Shown here: positions 12,745-33,314 of the stretch, in pieces | Layout of the letters: every line of letters begins with the position of its first letter | Numbering within the stretch: position 1 is the stretch's first letter | Source of the DNA: a virus | DNA: 42,291 nucleotides | Strand: one strand, 5' to 3' | IMG/VR virus record: IMGVR_UViG_3300036398_001345 | Span: 1 to 42,291 of that record | Made by a program: the position numbers and the translations under genes | Notes under the pieces: model-generated | Seen by the model: only the letters and a program-made list of their open reading frames with translations | Database searches by the model: none | Told to the model about the DNA's origin: nothing

Positions 12745-13350
12745 TCAAATTACTCCGAGTATCTTAGCAAACTTTGTTGTATATTTTATACGGTCTTGTA
12801 AACCGTTTGTTCCACCATTTATTCTTTTGGTTAATTCAAGCATGACTTGTTCTGTCATACCCTTATCGGATATTGTGTTCAGTTTATTCTTGTAGAAAAA
12901 CCATCCGGCAGATAATAGTGGATATTTTGTTTCAACAAAATTTGGATTCAACATAATATCTTCGTTTACAAATTTATCAAACGCGGAGTAGTTGTTCCTT
13001 CCAGTTAATTGAATATATCCTCTGCCACGAAATTTCCAACCATCGTGAGTTCCCTCTGAACCATTTCCCATTCTATCAGCATAAACCCTCGATGCAATCC
13101 TTTCTGGATTTCTAGCATACGCCTCTGCCAGTCCTGGTTGCTTGAAATACTTCGGGAAGGTTGCAATTAAACCTTTGGTTGAATAGTTCAAATTTTCTGA
13201 TTTAAACTTAAAGTTACCACTTTCATGTGCACACTGGCCCAAAAAATGTGATAACCGTATAGGTGTATTCATTTCAAATTTATCCACAACTGATTGGATT
13301 TCACCATATACACCATCTGGTATCTGTCCTTTCAATTTACTAATGTCCAT
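12745..13350 (-). CDS. GH19 chitinase-like lysozyme (endolysin)
   Basis: This is a 201-residue glycoside hydrolase family 19 enzyme of the phage lysozyme type, cleaving the peptidoglycan glycan backbone. The catalytic Glu43 lies in FLGQCAHESGNF and a second acid, Glu52, in SENLNYS. The hallmark FRGRGYIQLTGRNNY (about 107-121) and INGGTNGLQDR near the C-terminus are present. ATG 13350 is chosen over an upstream TTG at 13374, which lies in the previous gene. There is no signal peptide, so it would need a holin, or act as a virion-associated lysin given its tail-gene neighbours. It complements the exported CHAP enzyme at 2988-3569. Confidence 0.9.
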   Translation of the reverse strand: MDISKLKGQIPDGVYGEIQSVVDKFEMNTPIRLSHFLGQCAHESGNFKFKSENLNYSTKGLIATFPKYFKQPGLAEAYARNPERIASRVYADRMGNGSEGTHDGWKFRGRGYIQLTGRNNYSAFDKFVNEDIMLNPNFVETKYPLLSAGWFFYKNKLNTISDKGMTEQVMLELTKRINGGTNGLQDRIKYTTKFAKILGVI

Positions 13351-13351
13351 C

Positions 13352-13750
13352 TTAGTCACCAGTCCAATGTTCAACTCTAACTGGAACTACTATTGTGTTA
13401 CCAACCTCTTGTGGTTTACTTGGAAAATGGTCTGTATTGTAATTATTCCACTTCTCACACAAATCACTGGCAATTCTCCAAGCATCCTTTTTGAGTTGTT
13501 CTATATCTGGCATATCCATTTTCATCGGTTGTTTGAAACCAAAAATTATAGTCATATATGTAGTTCCACGATTGGATGAAAAACCACGCTTATCTTGTTC
13601 TATTTTCAATACGGTCAATACCGGATGATTTATTTTATAGTGCATATCTGCCTTTGAAGGTGCAGTTGGTGCAACATCCATTGGTGCTTCTTTTAATTTA
13701 TCTTTGAAACTATCTTGAAGATGTCTTCCTTCATTTACTAAATCTTTCAT
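13352..13750 (-). CDS. Putative head-packaged or virion protein
   Basis: This 132-residue protein starts at ATG 13750, supported by AAGGA upstream and by the N-terminus MKDLVNEGRHLQDSFKDKL. That N-terminus closely parallels MKDLVQEGRNIQDKF of the unrelated repeat protein at 35509-36264. KEAP near residue 22 could be a second protease site. The rest (strands TVLKIEQDKRGF, TTYMTIIFGF, then TIVVPVRVEHWTGD) is a small alpha/beta domain of unknown function. It ends one base before the lysozyme gene. Confidence 0.6.
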   Translation of the reverse strand: MKDLVNEGRHLQDSFKDKLKEAPMDVAPTAPSKADMHYKINHPVLTVLKIEQDKRGFSSNRGTTYMTIIFGFKQPMKMDMPDIEQLKKDAWRIASDLCEKWNNYNTDHFPSKPQEVGNTIVVPVRVEHWTGD

Positions 13751-14178: not shown

Positions 14179-15354
14179 TTATTCCACAACAACCCATTTA
14201 GTTCCATTGAACCAAAGTGTTCTGGATTGATTTGGCCACAATGGATAATCGAGTGCTGTATCTGTTCCCCAATCTATATTTCTAATTGTAACAGTATTTG
14301 CAGTTGAGCCATTGAAAATTGTGACGAGCTGACCAACACTTGGACCCGTAGGGGAGACAATGTTGTAGTCCACCGCAACACGACTGACAACCCATCTTGA
14401 ATTACCAGCGAGAGTTGTTGGTGCGACTGTATGGATTGTGACACTACTTGTTCTATGTTGTGGATTAACTTCCCATGAGATACCGTTTGTACCTCTTGTA
14501 GCATAAGAACCGACCGGTGCAGTTTCTCCACCTTCGAGAGCAAATAAGTTAATTGCACCTCGTTGGACATTGCGTGATGTAACCGTTGAATCCACCAGAA
14601 AGGTAGCGGTGTCTGCCTTAACAGAACGAGCAGCGTTTGTAGCAAAAGCCGATGTAGAAGAGAAGTCTGCATGATTCGCGTCAAGTGCAAACAATGATGT
14701 ATCTGCAAACTTAGCATGAGTTCCGTTTAAGGAATAGAATGAAGTATCGGACTTAGCAGAGTGTGCAGCCGTTGAAGCGTAGGTTGCCAAGTCTGAAAGA
14801 GTTGCCTTACCAGCGGCTCTACTTGTATCTGAATATCCACTCGTATTTGAACGATTACTGACTGCAGTTGAGTCTGCAAAACCAGCAGTTAATGAACGAT
14901 TTGCATTTACTGCATGTGCAGATTTATTTGAACTATCTGACAATTTAGCTCTATCGGATGTTTGTGAATGTTTTGCCTCAGCAGCTTCAAGCGCATAAGT
15001 TGAAAGAAGTGCATAAGGAACTGTTCTGATTTGTAATCTACCGAGTGTTACACCATTTACATAAGCATAAACAAAAAGTTTCTTACCGTAGTTATCAATT
15101 AGAATATTGTCTGCAACATTCTCGATAACATAATTGATAATACCATTGTTGATTTCAATATCAACATTCTCACGATACCAAAGTGCATTAGAATTAAGAT
15201 GTGAATTTTCATCGAAAGAACTATCTGCAATATAAACAGAAAACTTCGAGTTAATATCTGTTCCAGCAGGTGCATGTGCTTGATACTGAATGTTTGTCCC
15301 TGCAAATGCATTGACTGCAATCAAAGTAAAGATTGCCAAAAAAACTTGTTTCAT
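14179..15354 (-). CDS. Exported repeat protein, fibre- or adhesin-like
   Basis: This is a 391-residue protein with a clear signal peptide (MKQVFLAIFTLIAVNAFA, residues 1-18). An N-terminal domain ends RTVPYALLSTYALEAAEA, a junction phrase seen in many Bacteroidota/Ignavibacteria secreted proteins. A Ser/Ala/Asp-rich region (about 125-256) contains 15-residue repeats such as SDTSFYSLNGTHAKF and ADTSLFALDANHADF. The C-terminal beta domain (VGQLVTIFNGS … LWFNGTKWVVVE) resembles fibre-tip modules. It has GAGG before ATG 15354 and is co-transcribed with the T9SS-tagged gene upstream. A signal peptide is unusual for a virion fibre, so it may be displayed on or released from the infected cell. Confidence 0.65.
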   Translation of the reverse strand: MKQVFLAIFTLIAVNAFAGTNIQYQAHAPAGTDINSKFSVYIADSSFDENSHLNSNALWYRENVDIEINNGIINYVIENVADNILIDNYGKKLFVYAYVNGVTLGRLQIRTVPYALLSTYALEAAEAKHSQTSDRAKLSDSSNKSAHAVNANRSLTAGFADSTAVSNRSNTSGYSDTSRAAGKATLSDLATYASTAAHSAKSDTSFYSLNGTHAKFADTSLFALDANHADFSSTSAFATNAARSVKADTATFLVDSTVTSRNVQRGAINLFALEGGETAPVGSYATRGTNGISWEVNPQHRTSSVTIHTVAPTTLAGNSRWVVSRVAVDYNIVSPTGPSVGQLVTIFNGSTANTVTIRNIDWGTDTALDYPLWPNQSRTLWFNGTKWVVVE

Positions 15355-15368
15355 TTTTTCCTCATTGT

Positions 15369-15791
15369 TTAATTAAAAATAACTTTTGTTGAATATCCTT
15401 GTTTATCCCATGTTGTAATTCTGATATAGAATACACCACGATTTGGCAATGTAATTGTATTCGATACACCACCAATAGTTTGAATAACCACTTTACCGTA
15501 TACATCCGTTACTTGTATTGATGCTATATTATCAACACCGAATGATACTACACCGTCTGGCGTTGGGTTAGGGTACGCCAATACACCAAAATTATTTGTT
15601 TCTTCTACGGAAAGTGCTACTCTGTTTGGAACACGAATACCGATGTGAAACTTATTCTTGTAACCTGCAACTACTTGTCCAAGTGTTGCATTACCATTAC
15701 CACCACTAACGATTGATTTAAGTAGGTGTGGTTTGGTATCACTCGCAGTTAGTATGCCAACTGCGAGGAATAAGGCAATGATATATCTCAT
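15369..15791 (-). CDS. Secreted protein with T9SS C-terminal sorting domain
   Basis: This 140-residue protein has a signal peptide (MRYIIALFLAVGILTA) and a C-terminal Por/type IX secretion sorting domain (about residues 70-140): VLAYPNPTPDG, then IQVTDVYGKVV, TITLPNRGVFYIRITT and final KVIFN. The domain normally directs outer-membrane export by the host T9SS and attachment to the surface. The stretch between (SGGNGNATLGQVVAGYKNKFHIGI) resembles short secreted proteins of the same phyla. It has AAAAGGAG and a matched promoter (15825-15855). It probably came from a Bacteroidota-type host. Role in infection unknown. Confidence 0.82.
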   Translation of the reverse strand: MRYIIALFLAVGILTASDTKPHLLKSIVSGGNGNATLGQVVAGYKNKFHIGIRVPNRVALSVEETNNFGVLAYPNPTPDGVVSFGVDNIASIQVTDVYGKVVIQTIGGVSNTITLPNRGVFYIRITTWDKQGYSTKVIFN

Positions 15792-15824: not shown

Positions 15825-15855
15825 CTAATATAAGAAATTTTAAGATGAGATCAAA
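15825..15855 (-). promoter_or_regulatory. Bacteroidota-type promoter
   Basis: On the minus strand TTTG (15855-15852), 19 bases, then TATATTAG (15832-15825). It is placed 33 bases before the start of the T9SS-domain gene at 15791. The -7 element matches that of the gp44 promoter. Confidence 0.65.
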
Positions 15856-15862
15856 GTAAAAA

Positions 15863-16195
15863 TTAACCTGATGGGTTGGCATCACGAATTTTTTCTTTTA
15901 TCCATTCATACGCTTCTTCATTGTGAGCATTAACTCTCCACTCTTTTACTACATGATAATCAATATCATGTGTTCCAAATGGACGAACATCACATATTTT
16001 AGCAACATGACCAGTTTCAAATTGAATATGCCATGCGACCTTTTCCACACCGTCAAATTCATCACCTGCATCAACGGTAAATGTTGGCTGTCCAAATGCC
16101 TTAACCAAGTGTCTATATTCACATTCCATAACGCCTACTTGTGGTGTCATTTTTACCACAATATCCTTACCCATTCTGTGTCTGGGATAACTCAT
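15863..16195 (-). CDS. Conserved phage-type hypothetical protein
   Basis: This is a 110-residue small alpha/beta protein. Its core (FGQPTFTVDAGDEFDG, VAWHIQFETGHVAKICDV, then WRVNAHNEEAYEWIKEKI) resembles a small protein common in T4-like and other phages, with the pattern G-x-P … D … W-x-I-x-F-x-x-G-x-V-A-x-I. I recall that family only as hypothetical. AGAGG lies before ATG 16195. No catalytic motif is evident. Confidence 0.65.
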   Translation of the reverse strand: MSYPRHRMGKDIVVKMTPQVGVMECEYRHLVKAFGQPTFTVDAGDEFDGVEKVAWHIQFETGHVAKICDVRPFGTHDIDYHVVKEWRVNAHNEEAYEWIKEKIRDANPSG

Positions 16196-19302: not shown

Positions 19303-20091
19303 TCAAATAATATACTTTGAAATCATTTTAGAGTTATTAAGTGTATTGTGTTTGGCTCTTTCACCCCACTTGTATTCAAAATATTGATGACAGTTGTGTT
19401 CTTCCATTCGAGACTTATGTATTTGTTCATCTGATTTAGCAGAGACGGAAACGAAATGATAGAAGTGCGTAGAATAATCTCTTGACATTTTCATACCACT
19501 TAACTCACATTTCAAAAAGAAATCCCAATCTGCAACATACCCAGCTTGTGATGGATAACTTTCATCAAACCCACCTACTTTCAAAAAGTCTTTCTTGAAC
19601 ATAAGAATTGGAAAAGTACATCCAGAATCATCCATAGTATTTTTTGAGGACACCATTTCGGAATAATCCCAAAACTTTTCCACATCAAAACTATCGGGAG
19701 TTCTTCCCAAATCCTTTATGATAAATTGTCTGAACATACTTGGATATGGTTCTATTTGATTGGGTGATACAACTTCGTTCTCTAACATATTCATAGTCAA
19801 TAGTTCATCCCAATTTTTAGGGAAAACATTGTCATCGTTCACTATTAGAATCTTGTTATGTGTAGAATTATACACACCTAAATTAGTGGCACGGCAAGTA
19901 CCAACATTCTGTTCTAAATTAAGAACAAGTATGTTGTCACTATGTTTTTCCAGAATATCCTTATTAACATCGTATGTTCCATCAACAACTACAACTATTT
20001 CATTATCATTCTTTTGTCCTTTTATTGCAGATGTTAAACATAGGTCTAACGAAGATGGTGATTTGTAAGTTGGTATTATTACCGAAATCAT
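19303..20091 (-). CDS. Family 2 glycosyltransferase
   Basis: This is a 262-residue GT-A, inverting-type glycosyltransferase that moves a sugar from a nucleotide-sugar donor. The N-terminus MISVIIPTYKSPSSL with EIVVVVDGTYD (Asp37) and the metal-binding NDDNVFP (Asp86-Asp87) are standard GT2 elements. GGFDESYPSQAGYVADWDFFLK is the acceptor-side motif. It is the last gene of the 11-kb island and overlaps the upstream gene by four bases. Acceptor and sugar unknown. Confidence 0.85.
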   Translation of the reverse strand: MISVIIPTYKSPSSLDLCLTSAIKGQKNDNEIVVVVDGTYDVNKDILEKHSDNILVLNLEQNVGTCRATNLGVYNSTHNKILIVNDDNVFPKNWDELLTMNMLENEVVSPNQIEPYPSMFRQFIIKDLGRTPDSFDVEKFWDYSEMVSSKNTMDDSGCTFPILMFKKDFLKVGGFDESYPSQAGYVADWDFFLKCELSGMKMSRDYSTHFYHFVSVSAKSDEQIHKSRMEEHNCHQYFEYKWGERAKHNTLNNSKMISKYII

Positions 20092-20774
20092 AGACTACCC
20101 CAATCAACCAATGGGGAAACAAATGGATTTTCACAATGGGTGGAGTATCCTGGAATACAAGATATTAAATTAGATCCCTCTTTCCATAAATGAGTAAACT
20201 TTGTATGATCATAACCATCGTGAGTAACATCTGGTCTACAATATAACTTATGAATATCCCAATGAGTTTTAAATGTACTCATTTTTCCTGCATAGGTATT
20301 ACAAGTAGATGGGGTTGATCTCCAATGTGATAGTTTACTAACGAGAATCTTAGACTGCAATGGATCATACATTGGTAAAAAGTATTTATCAGGATGGTCA
20401 TATAAAGTAACATAATCAACATTAAACGATTGGAAAGCATCCATCATTACTAAATCCCATCCAGGTCTATGCATATAATCATCTTCAACTAAATAAACTA
20501 TTGTGTCTGCATCTAAATCTTTTGTGACTACTGTTTCTAATAAGAAGTCAAAACTTGCATGGTCTGATCCTCCTGAAAACTCTATTACTTCATTTCCACG
20601 AAAATCTACATGATGGTTTTCCATTTTACCATCAAGACAAACGGTTATGTCTACATTATCGGTCATCAAAGAATCAAAACATTTTTGAAACGAAAACCAT
20701 TCTGGTTTAACATCATTTTTTCTATCTGCAGATTTATTATTATGTCTAACAAATATGTGAATTGGTTTATTCAT
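20088..20774 (-). CDS. GT-A type glycosyltransferase
   Basis: This 228-residue protein has the fold signature of a GT-A transferase with an acidic metal site VYLVEDDYMHRPGW (Glu97-Asp98-Asp99), here EDD instead of DxD. The downstream HDGYDHTKF and CIPGYSTHCE phrases recall capsule/LPS-type glycosyltransferases of large phages and giant viruses. AAAGGTGG precedes the ATG. It overlaps its neighbours by four and eight bases. Donor and acceptor cannot be named. Confidence 0.65.
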   Translation of the reverse strand: MNKPIHIFVRHNNKSADRKNDVKPEWFSFQKCFDSLMTDNVDITVCLDGKMENHHVDFRGNEVIEFSGGSDHASFDFLLETVVTKDLDADTIVYLVEDDYMHRPGWDLVMMDAFQSFNVDYVTLYDHPDKYFLPMYDPLQSKILVSKLSHWRSTPSTCNTYAGKMSTFKTHWDIHKLYCRPDVTHDGYDHTKFTHLWKEGSNLISCIPGYSTHCENPFVSPLVDWGSL

Positions 20775-21453
20775 GGCACACCCACCTTTCAGAAATAATT
20801 GGTCTAATTGGATTCAAATTATTATCTATGCCGTATCGAGGATATAGATGTAATTTTGTTTCCTTACAATTTAAAAATTCTACCATATAAAATGTAGCCG
20901 TACTTACTGTGTGAAATTCTTTTGAATTTTCTATAACCTTACCCCAATCTAACAGAGTAAAACCATCGATGTAATCCATCTGTATTACTTTATTATTACT
21001 TTCTGGTGTAATTGATATTTTATATTTCAAATCAGGTGATGCAAAATTACAATTAACTAATGTATATTCTTCACCTTCTTTCAATCCTAATTTTTCATAC
21101 AGTTCATTTTCTTTATCATAATTTCTATTCCACTTTAAAGTTTTCCATTCGGAAATATCTTCTGATACATAATGGTACTTTGCACCCATACAATCGAGTT
21201 TAATACCCATAGAACGAAGTATATTTTCCGCATTTAGAAAATCTATCTTTTCAACCAATGAATATATTGGTTCATTTCTATATTTAGACATTTCTATAAA
21301 TGTTGTATTTGGTAGAACCAAATAATCTTTTATCCAAATATATTCATCGTTTACTGGCCAAATGACATCGTAATCTAATTTGGATATGATAGGTGATATG
21401 AAAAGAATATCACCTATCCCAAACGGTTGCATTATTATTATATTTTCTTTCAT
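20767..21453 (-). CDS. GT-B (family 9-like) glycosyltransferase
   Basis: This 228-residue protein starts MKENIIIMQPFGIGDILFISPII, which matches the N-terminal GxGD loop of ADP-heptose:LPS heptosyltransferase-like enzymes. VNCNFASPDLKYKI and the C-terminal HTVSTATFYMVEFLNC fit the donor-binding half. It is short for the family (usually 300 or more), so one lobe is reduced. It probably transfers a sugar within the island's glycan pathway. Function beyond the fold is inference. Confidence 0.55.
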   Translation of the reverse strand: MKENIIIMQPFGIGDILFISPIISKLDYDVIWPVNDEYIWIKDYLVLPNTTFIEMSKYRNEPIYSLVEKIDFLNAENILRSMGIKLDCMGAKYHYVSEDISEWKTLKWNRNYDKENELYEKLGLKEGEEYTLVNCNFASPDLKYKISITPESNNKVIQMDYIDGFTLLDWGKVIENSKEFHTVSTATFYMVEFLNCKETKLHLYPRYGIDNNLNPIRPIISERWVCHE

Positions 21454-21457
21454 TGTA

Positions 21458-22210
21458 TTACATCAACTGAATTTTTTTAAAATATGATAATGTTTCTGAG
21501 TTAAACATATTGGGTTGTAGTTTGTTTTTAATGCTACCACCGGCTTGATGTAAAACTTTAACCACTTTATTGTTTAGTATAAGTTCATCATTTACTACTT
21601 GAATTTCTTTCCAAGAATCCCAATGTGTCTTTTCTCCCCAAACATTTGATATACCATAATAAACATTACTATCTACTGGATCAAGCATCTTGTGTGTCCA
21701 ATCTTCTTCATGCACCATTCTATTCAATATAGATTGTTCTTGGAATGGCATTATGTTTCCAAATGATAAATTGTATTCTATCCATTTCTCTAAAAAAGAT
21801 TTATTAGTTACACCAACCAAACCACAGTTAAGATATGTGTCCCAACTATATTTTTCAAAAATAGCAGAATCCTTTCCTGCCTTTTTGAAATCGTTGTTAT
21901 TTCGGACACCGATTATATCGTAGTTCAAATTATCTTCATCCAACAGTTCATCTAATTTTCCAGTTATTATACAGTCTGCATCAAAATGAACTACCATATC
22001 GTATTCATCTATCAACTGCATTGATATTGCAGGATGTACTGTTGTCCAATTAAAATTTTCATGTGAATCGAAAATAGTCTGTATCTGTTCCGAATTAAAT
22101 ACATAAAATGGTATATCCGGATGAAAGTGTTTTGCGGACTTCAATAATTTATCAGCACCTATTGTAAAAAACCAATCGTCAGAAACATGAGTACAAAATG
22201 CTACATTCAT
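21458..22210 (-). CDS. Family 8-like glycosyltransferase
   Basis: This is a 250-residue GT-A enzyme with the DxD metal motif in VVHFDADCIITG (Asp77, Asp79) and the typical conserved phrases YLNCGLVGVTNKSFLEKW and FQEQSILNRM. A C-terminal HQAGGSIKNKLQP loop fits the His-containing C-terminal metal/donor site (HxxG-x-x-K) of retaining GT8 enzymes. AGAGGA precedes ATG 22210. It overlaps the transketolase Pyr-domain gene by four bases. The sugar is unknown. Confidence 0.75.
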   Translation of the reverse strand: MNVAFCTHVSDDWFFTIGADKLLKSAKHFHPDIPFYVFNSEQIQTIFDSHENFNWTTVHPAISMQLIDEYDMVVHFDADCIITGKLDELLDEDNLNYDIIGVRNNNDFKKAGKDSAIFEKYSWDTYLNCGLVGVTNKSFLEKWIEYNLSFGNIMPFQEQSILNRMVHEEDWTHKMLDPVDSNVYYGISNVWGEKTHWDSWKEIQVVNDELILNNKVVKVLHQAGGSIKNKLQPNMFNSETLSYFKKIQLM

Positions 22211-22689
22211 AATATCCTCTTTGATAAGTTAAGATAAACTGGACCCTGTTCTGAAAAAGTTGAATGTAAATCTTCGATTAACTCATTTTCATCTTCTGGT
22301 CTTTTATATTGTATGTTTTCAAAATATTTTAATATATCATCATCGTGTCCCCAATGTGTAAACCCATCGTGTGAATAGTCTTTATCTCTTCCAGATGCAA
22401 CTAATTTTATATTTAATTTTTCACGATTAACATAATTGCGTATTAACTCCATTGGTCTGAAAACTATAAATGGTGTTATACTATATGCAATAGGAATCTT
22501 TCCAGTATAAGATAACCCAACACACATACCAATCATCAGTTGTTCCGATGAACCACAATTTATGAAATTGTTTGGATATTTTTCCTTGAAAGAATCGAAT
22601 AAACCATACCCTAAATCAGCAGTTACCAGAATTATGTTTGGATTTTTTTCTACTTGATTTTCTAAATATTCTACAAATCTTTTCCTCAT
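22207..22689 (-). CDS. Transketolase-like Pyr-domain subunit
   Basis: This 160-residue protein corresponds to the pyrimidine-binding (Pyr) domain of a thiamine-diphosphate transketolase. The cofactor-activating Glu is in INCGSSEQLMIGMCVGLSY (about residues 46-64). ITPFIVFRPMELIRN and DGFTHWGHDDDILKYF match the rest. The third, C-terminal transketolase domain is absent; the protein stops just after GPVYLNLSKR. It should pair with the PP-domain subunit at 23237-23893 to form one active site. ATG 22689 replaces an upstream TTG. The methyltransferase gene 22711-23244 lies between the halves. Confidence 0.8.
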   Translation of the reverse strand: MRKRFVEYLENQVEKNPNIILVTADLGYGLFDSFKEKYPNNFINCGSSEQLMIGMCVGLSYTGKIPIAYSITPFIVFRPMELIRNYVNREKLNIKLVASGRDKDYSHDGFTHWGHDDDILKYFENIQYKRPEDENELIEDLHSTFSEQGPVYLNLSKRIL

Positions 22690-22710
22690 AATTAAAACCA
22701 AGATAGTTGA

Positions 22711-23244
22711 TTAAAAATTTCCAATTACAATTCTATACCAATCAACAAATTTTATAGTATATTTTTCATTAGAGCTGAAAGGGAAATATTTACTATAAGC
22801 CGTAAATACTTCTGGCTTATTCGTGTCATCCATGAATATCATTCCACGAGTGCCTTTCAATAAATCTAAACTGAAATCAATATCTATGATAACATCTTCA
22901 TGTATATGAGAACCGTCAATCATTATGGTTTGTACATCATTCAATTTTATATTAGACTTAATAAAGTCTGCAGTTGTCATTTCGTAATGAGTTATATTTG
23001 GCAAGTTCATATTTGATAAAGCAACTTCTCTTATATGAGGCATTGATTCGCCTCTATTTTTATGTGAAATCCAAGAAGTAAAACCATCTTCTATAAATGG
23101 ATCAATTACATAAAAATGTTTTTGTGGAAACTCTAATGCCAAAGAACGGACTCCCTCACCATCAAATGCACCTATTTCCAAATGATTCCCACCAAAAGTA
23201 TTCAGTTCATATTTCAATACTTCATAGTTAATTGGACTAAGCAT
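22711..23244 (-). CDS. SAM-dependent methyltransferase
   Basis: This is a 177-residue class I (Rossmann) methyltransferase of the small FkbM/Methyltransf_24-like kind. Motif I is HLEIGAFDGEGVRSL; the acidic position after strand 2 is VIDPF; later IMIDGSHIHEDVIIDIDFSL and GMIFMDDTN. It probably methylates a sugar or glycan intermediate. It is unusually placed between two transketolase subunit genes, overlapping the PP-domain gene by eight bases. AAAGGAG precedes ATG 23244. Confidence 0.78.
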   Translation of the reverse strand: MLSPINYEVLKYELNTFGGNHLEIGAFDGEGVRSLALEFPQKHFYVIDPFIEDGFTSWISHKNRGESMPHIREVALSNMNLPNITHYEMTTADFIKSNIKLNDVQTIMIDGSHIHEDVIIDIDFSLDLLKGTRGMIFMDDTNKPEVFTAYSKYFPFSSNEKYTIKFVDWYRIVIGNF

Positions 23245-23893
23245 TCACTATCTCCTTTATTTTATTTTTTAATTCTGTTAATATATCGTTATTTGCACTC
23301 GTATAGTGTGCAGCCAATTCGTGTTTCCAACTCAAAAGTTCACTAACATCTGTCTTATGGATAACAACATTTTCCAAAAACGATTTTAGTCTTTTTTCCA
23401 ATTTATCACAATCAACCGATTGATATGCAGACCAACCATTTATATTACAATGTATTGTTATATTTTCTACATTAGAATCACTTATGAATCTAAGAGATTC
23501 CCATATCGAACCTTCTGCACATTCACCATCTGATATTACACAATGAACTGTTATATTTTTATTACCAACTGCAATACCAGTTGCAACGGTTATACCTAAC
23601 CCAAGACTGCCAGTAGCAACATCAATATAGTTATCAATATCTCTATCTGGATGAATACCATGTTTAACTAACAACTGTTCAGCATCAACTCCATAAAAAT
23701 GTTCCAATACAACATACAATGCCAATCCAGCATGACCATTTGATAGTACAACTTTATCATCCACTCCCTTCTTAGAATAAATGTCAAACAATATTGGTAG
23801 TGTAGTTAAACAGCTACCGAGATGTCCGAGATTATGTTTTACGCTTATATCAACAAGTCTATACATTAACTGATAAACGATTGGTTCTCTCAT
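23237..23893 (-). CDS. Transketolase-like PP-domain subunit
   Basis: This 218-residue protein matches the N-terminal, diphosphate-binding domain of transketolase: LGHLGSCLTTLPILFDIY, VVLSNGHAGLALYVVLE, TGSLGLGITVATGIAVG. The ThDP metal motif reads SDGECAEGSIWESLRF followed by the Asn in HCNING. It would transfer two-carbon ketol units, plausibly onto a nucleotide sugar to build a branched or keto sugar. AAGGAG precedes ATG 23893. The matching Pyr-domain subunit is at 22207-22689. Confidence 0.85.
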   Translation of the reverse strand: MREPIVYQLMYRLVDISVKHNLGHLGSCLTTLPILFDIYSKKGVDDKVVLSNGHAGLALYVVLEHFYGVDAEQLLVKHGIHPDRDIDNYIDVATGSLGLGITVATGIAVGNKNITVHCVISDGECAEGSIWESLRFISDSNVENITIHCNINGWSAYQSVDCDKLEKRLKSFLENVVIHKTDVSELLSWKHELAAHYTSANNDILTELKNKIKEIVNA

Positions 23894-23905
23894 TGAAAAA
23901 ACTCC

Positions 23906-24463
23906 TTAATGTTTAAAGATTACCAATAAACCTCTATGGCATCTTTCGTTTGGTAATGTTGATTTGTTGAATAATACATGATGTAAATTACTATTCTTAC
24001 ATTCTTCAAGAATTTCAAGAAGATTTGGAAAACTACCATCTATTTCTGGAAACAAATTAACATCATGGTAAATCAATATTCCATTTGGTAACAATAGATT
24101 ATCATAAACATATCTGAACCATTCGTTTGTGTGATGATGGTCTGCATCTGACAGTATGAAATCATATTTATCTTTGGTTGAAAATACAAAATCCTTTTCA
24201 TCCGATGTAACAATGTTAATCTTTTCACCATACCTTTCTTTAACTTCTATTGGCATAGCCCTTCCGAAATCAATCCAATTATCTACTAATGTATAACTTG
24301 GATTATTGCCATTGTAAGCAATCGCCTCGAGTATATTATCTGTTGCTCTACCACCACCTACACCAAGTTCTAATATTTTTTCTGACTTATGTGATGCAAC
24401 TAATCCTGCAACTAAATGTGCATGACAGACATCAATCTTTACATTTTCATTATTACCAAACAT
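23906..24463 (-). CDS. SAM-dependent methyltransferase
   Basis: This 185-residue class I methyltransferase has motif I ILELGVGGGRATDNILEAI, TLVDNWIDFGRA after strand 2, ILSDADHHHTNEWFRYVYD with the acidic/His cluster typical of metal-dependent O-methyltransferases of the Methyltransf_24 group, and LIYHDVN. ATG 24463 is preferred to 24475 because GGAG is seven bases upstream. It lies between the epimerase and the transketolase, so an O-methylated sugar is a reasonable guess. Confidence 0.78.
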   Translation of the reverse strand: MFGNNENVKIDVCHAHLVAGLVASHKSEKILELGVGGGRATDNILEAIAYNGNNPSYTLVDNWIDFGRAMPIEVKERYGEKINIVTSDEKDFVFSTKDKYDFILSDADHHHTNEWFRYVYDNLLLPNGILIYHDVNLFPEIDGSFPNLLEILEECKNSNLHHVLFNKSTLPNERCHRGLLVIFKH

Positions 24464-24464
24464 A

Positions 24465-25310
24465 CTAATCTCCAATTTTTAATTTATGTAATTCGTTTAG
24501 TCCATCTTCAAGACTATACTTTGGAAAATATTTATACTTATCTTTCAACTTTGATATATCAGCAACCCAAGATTTAATCGTATCGAATGTTCTCATTTTA
24601 TCTTCTATTAAATTAACATCAATACTATAACCGAATATATCACTTAATATATCGTAAACCTCTTTGTTTGTCCATTGACTGCCAAAACCTATATTAACAA
24701 CATCACCCTTAATCATTTCGGAATCAGAATTTGATATTACTAAAAGAGCATCTACAAAGTCATCTATGTAAATAAAATCATGTACACCGGGTGATATTGT
24801 TATGGATTCTTTTTTTACAAATTTATCAAATAATGTTGGTATAAATCTGTGTGATTTTTCATAAAGACCATATACTGAAAAGGGTCTTACCGTAACTATC
24901 GGTTTGTTATATCTGGATGCAAATCCTTTACATAACATTGTTCCAGATGATTTTGTTGCAGAGTATATTGTATTTGGTTCTAAATAATCATCCTCTGACA
25001 TGGGTTTGTTTTTTGTTCCATACTCAGATGATGAACCACAATAAACAAATGCCTTGTAATTTACATCTTTCGTTTGTTCAAGTAAGTTGTAAGTAAACAT
25101 GACATTCGACTCGAACATAGAATCTTCATCATAGATTTCAGCAGCAAAATGGAATATGTAATCCGGATTAAATGATTTAATTTTTTTTACCAAACTGTAA
25201 TCTCTTTTTATTTCCATTACATCACAGTTGATAAACCTTTCAAGTAAATGTTTACCGAGAAATCCAGTTGATCCGGTTATTACAATTTTTTTATTTTCAA
25301 TATTATGCAT
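24465..25310 (-). CDS. NAD-dependent sugar epimerase/dehydratase
   Basis: This is a 281-residue extended short-chain dehydrogenase acting on nucleotide sugars. The NAD-binding ITGSTGFLGKHL (Gly13, Gly16, Gly19), the HFAAE strand, catalytic Ser in CGSSSEYG, Tyr116-xxx-Lys120 in YSATKSSG, and RPFSVYGLYEKSHRFIP are all present. The exact reaction (4-epimerase, 4,6-dehydratase, reductase) cannot be fixed by eye. ATG 25310 overlaps the end of the upstream methyltransferase gene by eight bases; the longer frame is rejected. Confidence 0.88.
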   Translation of the reverse strand: MHNIENKKIVITGSTGFLGKHLLERFINCDVMEIKRDYSLVKKIKSFNPDYIFHFAAEIYDEDSMFESNVMFTYNLLEQTKDVNYKAFVYCGSSSEYGTKNKPMSEDDYLEPNTIYSATKSSGTMLCKGFASRYNKPIVTVRPFSVYGLYEKSHRFIPTLFDKFVKKESITISPGVHDFIYIDDFVDALLVISNSDSEMIKGDVVNIGFGSQWTNKEVYDILSDIFGYSIDVNLIEDKMRTFDTIKSWVADISKLKDKYKYFPKYSLEDGLNELHKLKIGD

Positions 25311-25794
25311 TTTCGCCAAACACCATGAAAGCATTATTCAAATCAATACCAGATGTGAATATGTTTTTATACCCTTTATCTTCCATATAGTCATGTATTA
25401 TCTGTGGTGTAAATATATTCAAGTGTTTTAAGTTATTCCAAGGTCTCCAATAGACTTGTGAATAATCTGGAAGATACAAAAACAATACACCGCCTGATTT
25501 CAATTTAGTTGTCCAGTAATCCAAAACATCAACCCAGTTATTAAGGTGTTCAAGGCAGTGTGAAGAAAATACATAGTCCAAATTATTATATGGAATGTTC
25601 ATAGCATCCCATTCATTTATCACAGGATCAATTGGATGTGCTCCCGGAAAAGCCCATTCTTCTCTATTACATCCAATATCAACACCCACTCCTTTACAAA
25701 CTTGTTGTGCATAAGGTATTGCAAATCTTGAAGCATAACCTTCACTTTGAAACTTTGGATAGGTTTTTCCTTTATATGTTATTGTTTCAATCAT
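25303..25794 (-). CDS. SAM-dependent methyltransferase (Methyltransf_11-like)
   Basis: This is a 163-residue class I methyltransferase. Motif I is GVGVDIGCNREEWAFPGAHPID; motif II/III is DYVFSSHCLEHLNNWVDVLD; and LKSGGVLFLYLPD follows. The C-terminal NLKHLNIFTPQIIHDYMEDKGY is the usual acceptor-side part of capsular and sugar methyltransferases. It sits between a GT2 gene and the epimerase with four- to eight-base overlaps. GAGG precedes the ATG. Substrate unknown. Confidence 0.82.
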   Translation of the reverse strand: MIETITYKGKTYPKFQSEGYASRFAIPYAQQVCKGVGVDIGCNREEWAFPGAHPIDPVINEWDAMNIPYNNLDYVFSSHCLEHLNNWVDVLDYWTTKLKSGGVLFLYLPDYSQVYWRPWNNLKHLNIFTPQIIHDYMEDKGYKNIFTSGIDLNNAFMVFGENA

Positions 25795-26413
25795 GGATTT
25801 CCTCGTAAAATTTGTTTTGATTTTCTTGACGGTCTATTGTTTTTGAATGGAATAAACAAAATTCCTTTTCCTCTGGAAAAGCAGAATATGTTTCGTATCC
25901 TGATAGTCTTTCGTGTACTTTATTTTTCCAAACAATTTCTTCTTTGTTTTTGTATATTCGTGTTTGATAATCTGGCCAATTTATTCTACCAATTTCATCA
26001 ACTCTCCAACCCCATTTTTTAATATGTTCTTCTGTTATACCATCCACTAAGTTCCATCTTGGAACCAAAAACATATCAACATCATTATCAATGAGTAGTT
26101 CGTGTAAATTATCTATCATGTCTCCAGACGGAAGTTCATCTGCATCTATATTGAATATCCATTTTTGTGTACAATGACTTTTCAAATTGTTTTTGAATTG
26201 TGCAAAATCTTTATCTAATGGAAATTCTATAACCTTAAAGTTTTTTATAGTATCTCTGTATGAATCTATAACACTTCTAACAGCAGATGTAACGGCCATC
26301 GTGTCCATTTGAACAACTATTTCATCATCATCTTTTAATTTATCTTTAAGAAATCGCAACAAAACATTCAAATCCATGTCTTCATTACAGGTGGTAATAG
26401 TATATGAAATCAT
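25787..26413 (-). CDS. Family 2-like glycosyltransferase
   Basis: This is a 208-residue GT-A protein. It starts MISYTITTCNEDMDL and has the DxD site FNIDADELP (Asp90, Asp92). Its end (VWKNKVHERLSGYETYSAFPEEKEFCLFHSKTI, split here as WKNKVHERLSG and LFHSKTI) matches the family of WaaE/KdtX-like glycosyltransferases. It overlaps neighbours by four and eight bases, indicating a single transcript. The sugar donor is unknown. Confidence 0.8.
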   Translation of the reverse strand: MISYTITTCNEDMDLNVLLRFLKDKLKDDDEIVVQMDTMAVTSAVRSVIDSYRDTIKNFKVIEFPLDKDFAQFKNNLKSHCTQKWIFNIDADELPSGDMIDNLHELLIDNDVDMFLVPRWNLVDGITEEHIKKWGWRVDEIGRINWPDYQTRIYKNKEEIVWKNKVHERLSGYETYSAFPEEKEFCLFHSKTIDRQENQNKFYEEIHD

Positions 26414-27720
26414 TTTGTATCTTCTCCAGAAACCGGTGTTATTTTTTTAAGTTTAGGTAAATTGATAGAAACTTGTTGTGCAAATTTAGGCAATCTATCA
26501 TTTAGTATCTTAATAAATTTGTTATGCATTTTTTCATATGACCAAAGATTTTCAACCTCTCTAACGGATAACTTAGAGTTTCTTAAAAATTTAGTATAGT
26601 TGTTAAAAACATCATACAATACTTTTGATGCGTCTTGATAGTTTACAGTAAACCATTGTGTTCCTGCGTTTATTACACTCTGCCAAACTGCACTTGGATG
26701 GACGGGTTTTAATTCACCTTTCAAATGAGTGTGGAAATTCTGATTAACAAAGTCTACATGACCACTCCATCCTGAAACAATGATTGGTTTACCACTTGCC
26801 ATAAATTCAGCAATAGGTCTACCGTAACCCTCACCTTTTGTAAATGAAACAAATGCCTTAACTTTCTTGTGATTGTATAGAGAGTTCATTTCTTCATCAG
26901 TCAATTCACCGTGAATAAGATATATGTTTGGCATATCAGTTTTTTTAGTCATTTGTTTTATCAAATTTATCTTTTCAATAACTCTACTTTTATCAGTTGT
27001 TGAAAATGTTCCACATGATGTCTTTAATAAAAGAGCAGGTTTTTTAGGTTGACCAGAAAATGTTTCTATGAATGTATAAATCAAACCAGATATGTCTTTT
27101 CTATCTTGTCCAAAGTCACCTTTAAGCCAATGTCCTACAAAAAGAAATGCAAAATCTTCTTCCATTTGATTAAGAGTTTCTTCTATACCAGAGTTCATTT
27201 CGATTGACTTATTGTAAATATCCAATCGAACACCTTCGTGTAAAACTTCAACAGGTGTTGTAAGTTTCAAAATATCAATAGCAGTATTTGTAACTTTATC
27301 GTGTTTAGTATATGATGTTTCATCAAAAACTTTTTTAGCGTGTTTCGATGGAACTATAACTAAATTCATTTTATTACAACCATCAATCCATTCTGGAGAA
27401 CAAGCATCTGTTTCAACTCCAGCAGTAATACCAACATTATACTTACCAACAGGTTGAAATTCATTTGGTATAGTACATTGCATCCAAATATCAGGTTGTC
27501 TGTTTAATGGTTCTGTCCTCACCAAATCCAATATAAGTTTATCATCTTGTTTGTTTGGATTCAATGCATTCATTGGAGTATCGCCCCAATTTATTGAAAT
27601 GACACTTATATTAAACTTATCCATTTTTATCAAGGAAAGTAACAAATCTCTTGCGTGGGATCCATAACCACTCATTGTAGCAACCGGTCCACAAAATACT
27701 AATTCTGGTCTATAATTCAT
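26410..27720 (-). CDS. GT-B (family 4-like) glycosyltransferase
   Basis: This is a 436-residue GT-B glycosyltransferase. The N-terminal glycine loop is FCGPVATMSGYGSHARDLLL, the hinge AGVETDACSPEWIDGCNKM is followed by VIVPSKHAKKVF, and the donor-site EX7E-type motif reads EGYGRPIAEFMASGKPIIV, followed by GHVDF. The length is normal for the family. It is one of three consecutive large GT-B genes (26410-30562). AAGGA precedes ATG 27720. Acceptor unknown. Confidence 0.87.
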   Translation of the reverse strand: MNYRPELVFCGPVATMSGYGSHARDLLLSLIKMDKFNISVISINWGDTPMNALNPNKQDDKLILDLVRTEPLNRQPDIWMQCTIPNEFQPVGKYNVGITAGVETDACSPEWIDGCNKMNLVIVPSKHAKKVFDETSYTKHDKVTNTAIDILKLTTPVEVLHEGVRLDIYNKSIEMNSGIEETLNQMEEDFAFLFVGHWLKGDFGQDRKDISGLIYTFIETFSGQPKKPALLLKTSCGTFSTTDKSRVIEKINLIKQMTKKTDMPNIYLIHGELTDEEMNSLYNHKKVKAFVSFTKGEGYGRPIAEFMASGKPIIVSGWSGHVDFVNQNFHTHLKGELKPVHPSAVWQSVINAGTQWFTVNYQDASKVLYDVFNNYTKFLRNSKLSVREVENLWSYEKMHNKFIKILNDRLPKFAQQVSINLPKLKKITPVSGEDTK

Positions 27721-27730
27721 ATTGTAATCC

Positions 27731-29167
27731 TTAAACTTTGTATAATCCGTAACGACTTCTTGGGTTGAAGTTGTTCAAACAATTATTTATACTTTCTACT
27801 ATTCTTTTACCCATATTCTTACTTTCCATTCCAACCTTTTCATCCATCATATATTTACGACCTTTCAATCCTGCAATCTTTCTGTCTTCCTTTGATGTCT
27901 GATACCACTCATAAAGTGCCTGACCAATATCTCTGAAATCAGCTCTGTCATCGAAAATGTATGGAGTTGGAACAGAACCTTGAACTGATATATTTGATGG
28001 CCACACGGGCTTAACCCATTCACCATGTTGTAAATGTCCCCATTCATCCTTTCTATGCAAAGTATGTACTTTAATGTAATCATCTTCTGTAAAATACTCA
28101 TTTGTTTCTGGATTGATAAAACCACATTGGTCTTGCAATCCACCTGTAACATTCACCACAACAGGTGTTCCAGATATAATAGATTCCGCAGTAGCAAGTC
28201 CAAACCCCTCATTTGAAGCCATGTTGATAACAACATCTGCATTATTGTAAAGGATATTCAACTTTCTTGATTCTATAATTCTATCATCAAATAAAACTTG
28301 ATATTCATTACACAATTCACCAACAAGTGAAACCAAATCTGTTCCATTTGGATCAATAGGTTGGGTATGCATAAATAAAACACAATCTTCTGCCGCATTA
28401 CCACCGTTCTTGTCTACGAGTTGGCAAAAATGTTTGTATGCAAGAACAACATCTCCTGGATGTTTACGATGAATATTTCTATTGTTCCACATAACAACAA
28501 ACTTATTAGGATTTTCACCACGAATTTTTTTACTTTCTTCTTGTAGTTCATTCCAATCATTATGTTGTTCTGTTTCATTTGCATTTATTGGATAGAAAAT
28601 ATTTGAATTGATTCCATGTGGTACATAAGTAATTCTACCATTAGATGTACTTTCACCTATTCTATTGAATATTCTATTATTTATACCATAAGTTTGTTTT
28701 GAAATCGCCATTAACAAATCACAACTAGCATACGCATCTTTATTCCACATAGGATCAGTTGCAGTATTTCCAATCAATCCTGCACCATCCCATATATTCA
28801 AATAAAGTAATGGAATATATTGACGAATTTCATGTTCCATATTATACAACCATCCCCAAAATCTTGGATCAGTAAAGTGTAATATTGCATCTGGCTTTTC
28901 CATATCAATTAGTCTTCTCAAAGTCAATGGATCACCATATCCATCGTGTGCATATATCTTAGATGACGCATCTGGAACACCTGTTATTTGTGCAGCATCA
29001 TCTGATAAATCGAAAATCTTTCCTTTATCTGGATGATTTATAGCGGCACCTAATTGAACCCAATCAAATTCTTTTATAGTATTCAAAACTATATCTCTCG
29101 ATACAGTTGCAATACCAGATGTAAGTCTCAAATCATCTGACAGTAATAATATCTTTTTCTTTGCCAT
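27731..29167 (-). CDS. GT-B (family 4-like) glycosyltransferase
   Basis: This is a 478-residue GT-B transferase. Its start MAKKKILLLSDDLRLTSGIATVSRDIV has the typical GIA/V donor-side loop. The middle contains LLMAISKQTYGI and VVMWNNRNIHRKHPGDVVLAY, and the EX7E motif is in NEGFGLATAESIISGTPVV, followed by NVTGGLQDQ. AAAGG precedes ATG 29167. It is in an operon with the neighbouring GT genes. Sugar and acceptor are unknown. Confidence 0.88.
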   Translation of the reverse strand: MAKKKILLLSDDLRLTSGIATVSRDIVLNTIKEFDWVQLGAAINHPDKGKIFDLSDDAAQITGVPDASSKIYAHDGYGDPLTLRRLIDMEKPDAILHFTDPRFWGWLYNMEHEIRQYIPLLYLNIWDGAGLIGNTATDPMWNKDAYASCDLLMAISKQTYGINNRIFNRIGESTSNGRITYVPHGINSNIFYPINANETEQHNDWNELQEESKKIRGENPNKFVVMWNNRNIHRKHPGDVVLAYKHFCQLVDKNGGNAAEDCVLFMHTQPIDPNGTDLVSLVGELCNEYQVLFDDRIIESRKLNILYNNADVVINMASNEGFGLATAESIISGTPVVVNVTGGLQDQCGFINPETNEYFTEDDYIKVHTLHRKDEWGHLQHGEWVKPVWPSNISVQGSVPTPYIFDDRADFRDIGQALYEWYQTSKEDRKIAGLKGRKYMMDEKVGMESKNMGKRIVESINNCLNNFNPRSRYGLYKV

Positions 29168-29176
29168 GTGAAACCT

Positions 29177-30562
29177 TTATATGTTAAAAAACTTTTGTGT
29201 TGTAGTTGATGAAACACCGTTCATGTTAATAAGCATTTTACGGTATGGTTTGAATTTGTAACCCATTTGTTCTAACGAAGAATTAAACCAATCTTCCGAG
29301 TAACTATCTTTATTTCTTTTACCGTTTGAAACTATTGTTTGTATATCACGAACAAAGTTATCAAGTCTATTCATATCTCTTGTTAATCGTATCAATCTTA
29401 ATCTTCGTCTGTTATATTCTTCTTCATCTTTTTCTAATCTTTGAATCTCTAATATAAGACTTTTTAATGAATTTTCCAAATCATTTATATCATAAGATAA
29501 AACTAATTCAGCAAATTCCGTTCCCTTGAACAAATCAATGTATGTTTTATCGTAGATTGGAATAGTCATCAAGTTCTTTTCTATCTGTGCATATTCAAAT
29601 CTTGGTGTGATAAACATTCCAAAGAAAGGCACTTTTGTATTTGTTGTTGATATACTAAATCTACAACCAGTTAAAAAGTCCATCATACTTTCCATCGTGT
29701 ATGTTCCAGCAAGTATCATGGGTTTGTGGTTATCGAAAACTTTGAATACAGTTGGATCCAAATCATAGTCTGGTAGGAATGTATCACTAAAAGTTTTACG
29801 AGAAACATTCGCGTGTTCTGCCAATATCTTTACATGATTAAAATAATTTTCAGGTGAGTATGTGTTTCCAATGTGAACCAATTTCTTACCAGACAGGTCT
29901 TTCAATCCCATCTTACCCATTGTTTCTACTATTGGTTTGAAGTTTCCATGTCCTTTGAATTTGGCGTAGTAAGCACATTCTGAAATGTATGGTAATTCTT
30001 TTTTATTTTCCCATGATTTCTCAATCCACTTGTCATAAATACTCATGTCAATATAACCACCGACTTGAAAAGTATAGTTGGAAGTTCCTCTCATTCCAAT
30101 ATATTCTTTCAAGGCATCTACAAAGAATGGTGTGTATGTTAAGTAGTAATCACTATATTTTATGAATGCCGGAACACAAATGGTATTGAAGTGCATGCCT
30201 TCATACGGATATATCTCGTGGTCAAAGAATGCAGTTATAGTATTCAACTTACAATACATCTTTGCCAATTCAATCAGTCTTTCTCTATGTTCTGGTTTTC
30301 TTTTTTGAATACCATCAACATCGTAGATAAATTTGTTTAGATTCAAAACAACAATATCATAACCCTCTAACTTATTTTTCAATTCAGTTATTTCCATTTC
30401 GGAAATATCTATACAGTTCTGATATTCAGATTTGAAATTGTTTGTTTCACTTGGATTGAAATAAAATGTATCAACACTATCAAGTGATGATATATTTTTA
30501 GTGAATGTATGTATTCCCCTATAAACTGATAGGTCAATGATTGCTAATTGAGCTATTTTCAC
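29177..30562 (-). CDS. GT-B-like protein, faintly like T4 alpha-glucosyltransferase
   Basis: This is a 461-residue protein. The pattern HTFTKNI near the N-terminus, YYAKFKGHGNFKPIVETMGK in the middle and RFEYAQIEKNLMTIPIYDK near residue 330 parallels the order of conserved phrases in T4 DNA alpha-glucosyltransferase (VTKFS; W-K-G-F; E-Y-T-H-L-E-L-G … IPVF). This is visual similarity only. If right, it would glucosylate modified phage DNA or another acceptor. GTG is the start, overlapping the ribbon-helix-helix gene (GTGA), with AGGTG upstream. It is the first sugar gene of the island. Confidence 0.5.
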   Translation of the reverse strand: MKIAQLAIIDLSVYRGIHTFTKNISSLDSVDTFYFNPSETNNFKSEYQNCIDISEMEITELKNKLEGYDIVVLNLNKFIYDVDGIQKRKPEHRERLIELAKMYCKLNTITAFFDHEIYPYEGMHFNTICVPAFIKYSDYYLTYTPFFVDALKEYIGMRGTSNYTFQVGGYIDMSIYDKWIEKSWENKKELPYISECAYYAKFKGHGNFKPIVETMGKMGLKDLSGKKLVHIGNTYSPENYFNHVKILAEHANVSRKTFSDTFLPDYDLDPTVFKVFDNHKPMILAGTYTMESMMDFLTGCRFSISTTNTKVPFFGMFITPRFEYAQIEKNLMTIPIYDKTYIDLFKGTEFAELVLSYDINDLENSLKSLILEIQRLEKDEEEYNRRRLRLIRLTRDMNRLDNFVRDIQTIVSNGKRNKDSYSEDWFNSSLEQMGYKFKPYRKMLINMNGVSSTTTQKFFNI

Positions 30563-31701: not shown

Positions 31702-32182
31702 TCATTTTTTTCACGGTTAATGGTACAAATAAATTTACGATTGGTAAACCACCGGTAACATAATAGACACCGATGAATTTTTGTTTTGCCATACGCAATA
31801 GTGAATCTATATTTAAAACATTATAGTTCATAGAATGTTTTATCATATTAAACACATCTTTATTTTTTGCTTCAAGAGAGTTTGGATTATTTACATATTC
31901 ATTTACACTATCTGTTAAATTCAGTATATTGGATCCATTGACTTCACCAACATAAAGATTTTTAGTTTTAACCATCCTTTCAGTTTTGTTCAAGTCTGTA
32001 TAATAAAATACTCTTGGAACATCTGAAATTTTGTAGTCATTATTTGTCCAAAAAGATTTATTTTTTATAGCAATTTGAGGATCAAGTATTACTGAATCAC
32101 CCATTTCATTTTGTGTATAATGATATAACTTAACTGATCCAGAAAGTGTAATCTCCTCTTTAATCAAATCTTTAAGCTTCAC
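31694..32182 (-). CDS. LYHYT-motif protein with propeptide-like N-terminus
   Basis: This is a 162-residue protein. GTG 32182 is chosen because GGGAG lies seven to eight bases upstream and the resulting N-terminus MKLKDLIKEE matches the shared propeptide-like sequence. A longer ATG start would lie deeper in metK. The start is inside the 3' end of metK (11-base overlap). The mature part begins SVKLYHYTQNEMGDS, resembling the HYT strand of ADP-ribosyltransferase-like toxins, with WTNNDY, VPRVFYYTDL and GVYYVTGGLPIVNLFVPL later. No full ART catalytic triad is clear, so enzyme status is uncertain. It could be an injected effector. Confidence 0.6.
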   Translation of the reverse strand: MKLKDLIKEEITLSGSVKLYHYTQNEMGDSVILDPQIAIKNKSFWTNNDYKISDVPRVFYYTDLNKTERMVKTKNLYVGEVNGSNILNLTDSVNEYVNNPNSLEAKNKDVFNMIKHSMNYNVLNIDSLLRMAKQKFIGVYYVTGGLPIVNLFVPLTVKKMNA

Positions 32183-33314
32183 CAATTTTCTCCCATTCAA
32201 ATTCATTATTTCCAAAGTGGCCTTTCTTTGCCGTTTGTAAATAAATAGGAGTTTTTAATTTTAATCTTTCTATTATTTTACTTGGTGTCAAATCTTGTTC
32301 TGTTAAATTTCCAAGACCATATTCCTTTCCTGTTGTTGGATCGTAGATTCTATATGAAACTGGATATTCTTCTCCGATTGCATAAGCAAGTTGAACCTTA
32401 ATCTTCTTTGCTTCTGGATTTTCATTCAGAGTTTTCTTGGCAATATATCTTGCCATATAAGCGGCACTTCTATCAACTTTACTTGGATCCTTTCCAGAGA
32501 AAGCACCACCACCAATCTCACAATCAGCACCATATTGATCAACAACAATCTTTCTACCAGTCAATCCACAATCCGAAATAGGTCCACCAATATTCCATTC
32601 ACCGGCAGGATTGATAAAATATCTTGTATTTTTTGTGAACAAACTTCTAAGACTTGATGGTATTTCTCTGAATACTTCTGGTAGTATCATTGAATGAAAC
32701 ATAGTTTGTAATCTTTCCAAGTTGATTTTTTCACTATGACACATAGACATAACAACATTATCAACGGAAACGGCTCTACCATTTTCAAATACAATAGATA
32801 CTTGACTCTTCATATCAGGACGAAGAATATCTTCATTCTTATAGTGATTTTTAACAAGTTTGTAAGCAACATCGATTAGTTTCTTTGCTAAGTAAATTGG
32901 TATTGGCATTCCATTTGGTGTTTCTCTTGTAGCGAATCCAAACATGATTCCTTGATCACCCGCAGTTGTGATTTCACCTTTATCAACTGCACCGTTTATT
33001 TCAGGTGATTGTGCACTCAAATTAAAATGTATGTTGCAGGTATAACCATTAAAACCAATTTCTTTTGTAGTATAACCAATATCACAAATAGTTTTACGAA
33101 CTATTCCAGTCAAGTCCACTTTTGATAAAGAAGCAGTTGATGTTATTTCACCAGCAACATATACATCAGTATCTTTTACCATCACTTCACAGGCAACTTT
33201 TGAATTTGGATCCTTACTTAAATAAGCATCCAATACTGCATCTGAAATCTGGTCAGCAATTTTATCAGGATGACCAGGTGAAACATATTCCGAAGTCCAT
33301 ACATATTTACTCAT
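32172..33314 (-). CDS. metK: S-adenosylmethionine synthetase
   Basis: This 380-residue enzyme makes SAM from methionine and ATP, at standard full length. Active-site elements are intact by eye: EYVSPGHPDKIADQISDA, VAGEIT, AQSPEI, the AGDQGIMFGFA motif, LRPDMKSQVS, GGPISDCGLTGRKI and the phosphate loop GGGAFSGKDPSKVDRSAAY. It shares a base with the upstream Nmad1 stop (TAATG) and sits in the replication-proximal operon. MetK is uncommon in phages; here it could feed the two DNA methyltransferases and three sugar methyltransferases in the same window. Confidence 0.97.
   Translation of the reverse strand: MSKYVWTSEYVSPGHPDKIADQISDAVLDAYLSKDPNSKVACEVMVKDTDVYVAGEITSTASLSKVDLTGIVRKTICDIGYTTKEIGFNGYTCNIHFNLSAQSPEINGAVDKGEITTAGDQGIMFGFATRETPNGMPIPIYLAKKLIDVAYKLVKNHYKNEDILRPDMKSQVSIVFENGRAVSVDNVVMSMCHSEKINLERLQTMFHSMILPEVFREIPSSLRSLFTKNTRYFINPAGEWNIGGPISDCGLTGRKIVVDQYGADCEIGGGAFSGKDPSKVDRSAAYMARYIAKKTLNENPEAKKIKVQLAYAIGEEYPVSYRIYDPTTGKEYGLGNLTEQDLTPSKIIERLKLKTPIYLQTAKKGHFGNNEFEWEKIGEA

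Follow-up and report, generated by a model that had tools for sequence, protein, structure and literature searches.

A gene for a protein with a sorting domain of the host's type IX secretion system (T9SS), when carried by a phage, raises the question of what so small a product could do for the infected cell and whether it acts alone. The gene considered here, gene 3, comes from the IMG/VR virus record IMGVR_UViG_3300036398_001345, and the whole stretch of 42,291 nucleotides that was analysed is referred to as the window.

The sorting domain of gene 3

The initial annotation, made from the letters alone, had placed an open reading frame at positions 15369 to 15791 and described its product as carrying a signal peptide and a Por-type C-terminal sorting domain (CTD). 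The reading frame is real and its coordinates are right; it lies on the minus strand, where the reading from 15791 to 15369 yields a protein of 140 amino acids beginning with MRYIIALFLAVGILTASDTKP, and the plus strand of the same interval contains many stop codons. The protein consists of a signal-peptide-like N-terminus, a conserved domain of around 50 amino acids and a T9SS type A CTD. Hydropathy and a conserved pattern mark residues 1 to 17 (15741..15791, minus strand) as signal-peptide-like: Lys, Arg or Asn at residue 2, a hydrophobic core with a 9-residue hydropathy of up to 3.0 and a TAS/TAG|DT end, all of which is an assignment by pattern only. Residues 18 to 66 (15594..15740, minus strand) form the conserved domain with the pattern SGGN.NA..GQV.AG..N..H.GIR.P...SV, for which the model confidence is low. 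The CTD spans residues 72 to 138 (15378..15578, minus strand).

The HMM search against type A sorting-domain models that had been proposed for this gene gave a divided result: NCBIfam TIGR04183 (T9SS type A sorting domain) matched residues 72 to 138 with 30.1 bits (E 3.6e-7), above its curated cut-off of 23 bits, and Pfam PF18962 reached 19.9 bits, which is below its gathering score of 27 bits. A relative of gene 3 in locus L017 scores 38.4 bits with PF18962 and thus lies above the gathering score. In the AlphaFold model, the C-terminal half is folded (pLDDT about 80), and residues 16 to 74 are modelled without confidence. The top three PDB matches of this model, 8glk, 8gl6 and 8gl8, are T9SS complexes in which the matching parts are the substrate CTDs of NucA, RemA and RemZ, with TM-scores by target length of 0.65 to 0.73 and E-values of 1e-3 to 5e-3. 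A TIGR04183 score over the cut-off and the fold of a T9SS CTD confirm that gene 3 carries a genuine sorting domain of type A, as the initial annotation had held. The remark that the non-sorting part is very short, about 50 residues, is likewise correct; this part is also the best conserved portion of the protein, with a mean pairwise identity among the gene 3 copies of 0.72 against 0.52 for the CTD.

A survey of other phages for the same domain, which had been suggested together with the HMM search, revealed relatives of gene 3 in 19 further viral contigs. Two IMG/VR scans yielded 18 loci with 47 to 91% identity over the best segment, and a third scan with gene 8, the partner described below, as query added locus L137 with a divergent gene 3 copy. 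TIGR04183 matches, one per record, were present in 17 of the 18 related virus records and exceeded the cut-off in 15; two of the 18 copies lie under the cut-off, and a third is cut short where its contig ends. Residues 1 to 66 of the window and L006 proteins are 92% identical and their CTDs 46%, which argues that CTDs are exchanged between phages as a module. The same picture of a nearly unchanged N-terminal part and a differing CTD is seen when the window gene (15369-15791) is compared with L006, L007, L008, L009 and L013. In INPHARED, the only T9SS-sorting-domain-like stretch matching the queries used lies at 298396-298650 of LR745206, a 634-kb uncultured phage. The BFVD database also contains a phage protein named after the T9SS sorting domain.

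The partner gene and the pair in phages

Clustering of all open reading frames around gene 3 in the window and the 18 loci revealed that gene 3 has a constant companion. The same gene, gene 8, follows directly in all 18 phages with downstream sequence, which are 16 IMG/VR loci, the window and L137. The picture of a solitary cargo gene is thus incomplete: gene 3 opens a strict unit of two genes, and the second of these encodes a larger, putatively secreted and fibre-like protein. In the window, gene 8 (14179..15354, minus strand) starts 14 bases downstream of gene 3 and encodes a protein of 391 amino acids; its copies across the phages range from 387 to 406 amino acids. Gene 8 begins with a signal-peptide-like segment, after which come an N-terminal domain, a rod of repetitive sequence and a C-terminus rich in beta structure. 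The signal-peptide-like start is conserved and has a Bacteroidota-style …VTLSAQ|T end in several copies, and a search for a sorting domain with the Pfam and TIGR04183 models found none in gene 8. The N-terminal domain covers residues 19 to 118 (15001..15300, minus strand) and is homologous to the N-terminal domain of secreted Bacteroidota fibres. The beta-rich tip (about residues 284 to 391; 14182..14505, minus strand) has a weak match to Phage_depo_C (PF25692; 18 bits, under the cut-off) and a low-confidence model. Structure matches of gene 8, the best of which in the PDB is a phage depolymerase, were set aside because the model has a pLDDT of 46. Neither gene 3 nor gene 8 matches a PHROG family, and no relative of gene 8 was found among the isolated phages in INPHARED.

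Gene 3 and gene 8 behave as a cassette, since they are kept together in a phage with otherwise different surroundings and are absent from an otherwise syntenic site. The first case is L018, whose contig encodes tape-measure-like and endolysin genes and whose DNA polymerase is just 29% identical; the pair is retained there, and the other neighbours differ except for a related endolysin. The second case is the Microcystis phage Mel-JY01, in which the genes from polB through the endolysin stand in the same order. The upstream neighbour of gene 3 in the window, here called neighbour 7 (cluster 7; 15863..16195, minus strand; 110 amino acids), has a homologue in Mel-JY01; there, a polypeptide deformylase comes next and then the endolysin, and the pair is absent from this site. 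The endolysin serves as the downstream syntenic anchor (12745..13374, minus strand; phrog_181, E 4.7e-65) and has its Mel-JY01 counterpart at 92920. In L137, the order is neighbour 7, a deformylase-like gene, the divergent gene 3 and gene 8. Directly after the pair, L137 also carries a gene (L137:7277-11512) for a secreted protein of 1411 amino acids with an IgGFc_binding domain (PF17517, E 1e-44) and Ig-like domains.

Chromosomal counterparts in Bacteroidota

A direct search of bacterial genomes with the phage gene 3 alignment gave 190 pattern hits, none of which was confirmed, and relatives were therefore approached via bacterial families. With gene 8 as query, 296 Bacteroidota genomes were searched, which led to a secreted protein of 578 amino acids in genome G313. 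It adjoins a protein of 195 amino acids with a signal peptide, the motif series …VIVSGG…GQ…HQGFWVP…SVDEP and a CTD. Small proteins of this GFWVP type were traced through the order of G313 (123 genomes), and a fibre gene with a gene-8-like N-terminal domain lies next to them in 27 of 27 loci that extend 400 bases or more downstream. Among 14 genomes of this order examined for 16S, rRNA was found in three. In a phylum-wide sample, the fibre gene is found immediately 3' of the small T9SS protein in 26 of 29 loci. The same holds for 59 of 64 loci of a second, independently chosen family of short T9SS proteins, the SVGQ type, whose presence was established at 80 genome loci. Adjacency to a fibre gene played no part in the selection of either small-protein family, and a comparison of the two shows them to be related (0/200 shuffles). 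The chromosomal pair is present at L020-L099 and L151-L180; a further example is L142:1795-2382 with its downstream fibre.

The fibre N-terminal domains of phages and bacteria align with a probability of 94.7% in hhalign (E 6e-8; 0/200 column shuffles), and an HMM of the bacterial domain places all 17 phage gene 8 copies at ranks 1 to 17 of 559 phage open reading frames, followed by a clear fall to noise. Homology of the gene 8 N-terminal domain with that of the Bacteroidota fibres is therefore, at the level of sequence comparison, well supported. Taken alone, the Bacteroidia branch aligns poorly with the gene 8 domain, and a search for the domain in eight Bacteroidota genomes returned two weak matches (E 0.03 and 0.07), both to unrelated proteins. 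The 50-residue domain of gene 3 shares the motif order GG, GQ, G..P and SV.E with the bacterial small proteins, and comparisons with their domain gave 4/200 and, after re-cutting of the alignments, 2/200 shuffles. A first HMM comparison with the SVGQ family showed nothing (E 0.28), and an HMM search for the gene 3 domain gave top ranks, yet with a best E-value of 0.14 that stems in part from CTD residues. Homology of the gene 3 domain with the bacterial GG-GQ-G domain is thus only suggestive, and the case for homology of the pair as a whole is made by gene 8, together with the order of the genes and their architecture.

Stalks and tips of the bacterial fibres are changeable, with Lcl_C, Fib_succ_major or collagen parts, and some of these fibres are up to 1,364 amino acids long. 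In eight bacterial fibres scanned, a signal peptide was present and a sorting domain was not found. SprA is encoded in 12 of 12 tested genomes carrying the chromosomal pair. Phage and chromosomal pairs are alike in gene order, orientation, the short gap, the parts of both proteins and the homologous fibre N-terminal domain. They differ in that the proteins of the phages are smaller, at 140 and 391 amino acids compared to about 160-200 and 350 to more than 1300, that the phage fibre has another tip and that the small-protein domain is just suggestively homologous. Conserved as it is across Bacteroidota, the chromosomal pair may be an undescribed surface system in itself, and as such larger than the phage finding.

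These counterparts also bear on whether gene 3 and gene 8 could be virion proteins, i.e., tail-fibre parts whose signal-like N-termini and CTD serve assembly or docking to PorV/SprA during adsorption. Gene 8 indeed resembles a fibre, and its neighbours include a gene with a tail-collar domain and the endolysin; however, the secretory N-termini of both proteins are conserved across the phages, with the AQ|T end in several, the bacterial counterparts are chromosomal, and neither protein belongs to a PHROG family. Five of the chromosomal loci adjoin a putative glucose-6-phosphate isomerase gene, which is our own reading of its sequence. A role in the virion is accordingly considered improbable.

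Host group, proposed mode of action and known systems

Mel-JY01 has the closest named DNA polymerase (62%), and its recorded host is a cyanobacterium, Microcystis elabens, which would be without a T9SS. If the host of the window phage were a cyanobacterium as well, the sorting domain would be a non-functional relic. The polymerase and the shared gene order fit such a host, but 19 relatives retain the CTD, and the promoter-like sites point elsewhere. Two patterns, TTG-N18-21-TANNTTTG and TTTG-N18-21-TANNTTNG, represent the Bacteroidota promoter consensus and are called here the first and the second pattern. A site of this type, TTTG-N19-TATATTAG (15825..15855, minus strand), is located 34 bases before the gene 3 start codon, and 8 of the 18 related loci have the strict pattern at the corresponding place. 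Upstream of the window genes, the second pattern was observed three times compared to 0.12 expected (0/200 shuffles), and the first pattern was found 11 times in Mel-JY01 compared to 0.34 expected. The Microcystis phage LMM01 showed no enrichment and a Synechococcus phage at most a marginal one. Six intergenic sites, including that of gene 3, lie in the window 20 to 68 bases ahead of gene starts on the same strand. The positive controls were weak: of two known Bacteroidota phages, one had only the -7 motif and the other nothing, and the two-part motif was not enriched at the chromosomal-pair loci. Mel-JY01 itself encodes a protein annotated as 'major paralogous domain', a Bacteroidota/Fibrobacter-type domain, which also speaks against a cyanobacterial host. 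Such a host for the window phage is thus very improbable.

The initial annotation took the sorting domain as a mark of the host group, and a Bacteroidota-type host is backed by this domain, the promoter-like site and the relatives of the pair in SprA-bearing genomes; a Bacteroidota host of this phage group is likely, as judged from these sequence features. Since Bacteroidota-type promoter-like sites are strongly enriched in Mel-JY01 (PP395634, L100-L103), its recorded host deserves a check; it may be wrong and stem from a non-axenic culture. The gene 3 start regions contain a strong Shine-Dalgarno-like AAGGAG, which is unusual for Bacteroidota hosts, and ribosomal protein bS21 (PF01165) is encoded in the records of L003, L010, L011 and L017 and in Mel-JY01.

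Taken together, gene 3 probably represents the small member, with the sorting domain, of a two-gene cassette for surface display that is carried by T4-like phages of T9SS-bearing Bacteroidota. The phages probably captured this cassette, and its products would be exported and re-dress the infected cell. Gene 3 and gene 8 are most likely co-transcribed from a host-type promoter, which would allow expression by the host polymerase without a phage factor. Both products bear Sec-type signal peptides, as predicted from their N-termini. Type A CTDs are recognized by the PorV shuttle (PMC12618676), and with its type A domain the gene 3 product would be carried across the outer membrane by PorV and the SprA translocon, after which it could be released or fixed to the surface. 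Gene 8, rod-like with a beta-rich tip and devoid of a sorting domain, would most likely reach the surface or stay there by binding gene 3, probably via the conserved 50-residue domain of the latter. The cassette was probably captured from a Bacteroidota chromosomal pair, a direction we infer, and appears to travel between phages as one unit. A likely benefit would be an altered surface of the infected cell, e.g., one that blocks other phages or changes attachment.

Alternatively, gene 3 could be an independent T9SS cargo acting alone in superinfection exclusion or as a decoy, with gene 8 as a neighbour of separate function. The architecture of gene 3, with signal peptide and CTD, is complete in itself, its CTD has been swapped while the N-terminal part was kept, and there are precedents for phage T9SS cargo with differing payloads. 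In Cryophage, the T9SS type A cargo varies between phage variants, and superinfection exclusion was already proposed for it (PMC7468147). However, the pairing with gene 8 holds in all 18 phages, one of which differs in its other neighbours, and it recurs on chromosomes, and the mature non-sorting part of gene 3 is a stretch of around 50 residues without a confident fold. A lone cargo is thus unlikely, and the two-gene cassette remains the preferred reading. The Cryophage payloads are an endoglucanase, a GH39 protein and a PA14 protein (PMC7468147), whereas the payload here is a conserved 50-residue domain together with a secreted fibre. Open reading frames with T9SS sorting domains have also been described in crAss-like phages (PMC6949934); these likewise are T9SS domains in Bacteroidota phages, but they are located near BACON-domain reading frames and head genes, and no such pair was described (PMC6949934).

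Compared to characterized type A cargo (TIGR04183/PF18962), such as the F. johnsoniae proteins NucA, RemA and RemZ, gene 3 has a similar, predicted signal peptide and the same YPNP start and beta-sandwich CTD of about 70 residues; unlike these, it is encoded by a phage and has a dissimilar mature part of only about 50 residues. Type B T9SS substrates and their cognate PorP/SprF shuttles (PMC12618676, PMC9143113) resemble the pair in that a substrate is linked genetically to a partner that determines its surface location; here, however, the sorting domain belongs to type A, and a secreted fibre takes the place of the outer-membrane shuttle. In a literature search, mostly outside subscription papers, no account of such a pair was found for either phages or bacteria. 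Phage T9SS cargo was already known from Cryophage and crAss-like phages, and the phage-borne pair appears to be new. Phage use of the host T9SS has so far been mentioned a few times and with varied payloads; here, one payload occurs in 19 related contigs and always with the same partner.

In a wider and more tentative reading, a surface-display system of two proteins, so far undescribed, might be common to Bacteroidota and their phages; in it, a small type A T9SS protein would be the export ticket or anchor for a modular fibre without a sorting domain, and the miniature copy of the phages would re-dress infected cells. Export or anchoring of such a fibre by a small protein with a sorting domain is a concrete, testable proposal. 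If true, a widespread and apparently unnamed surface system would account for many short hypothetical T9SS proteins, and a minimal, phage-derived version of it would be available for study.

Three further features of the window and its relatives were observed. Just upstream of the conserved block, a glycosyltransferase-like gene cluster (window 19303-30562, minus strand) varies among the relatives and might be a surface- or DNA-modifying module. A phage S-adenosylmethionine synthetase is encoded at window 32172-33314 (minus strand; phrog_1569, E 5e-106) and is also present in Mel-JY01. In G013, the record of L017, the DNA polymerase is in two pieces (53165-54082 and 54888-56453) with about 800 bases between them, which possibly represent an intron, an intein or an insertion.
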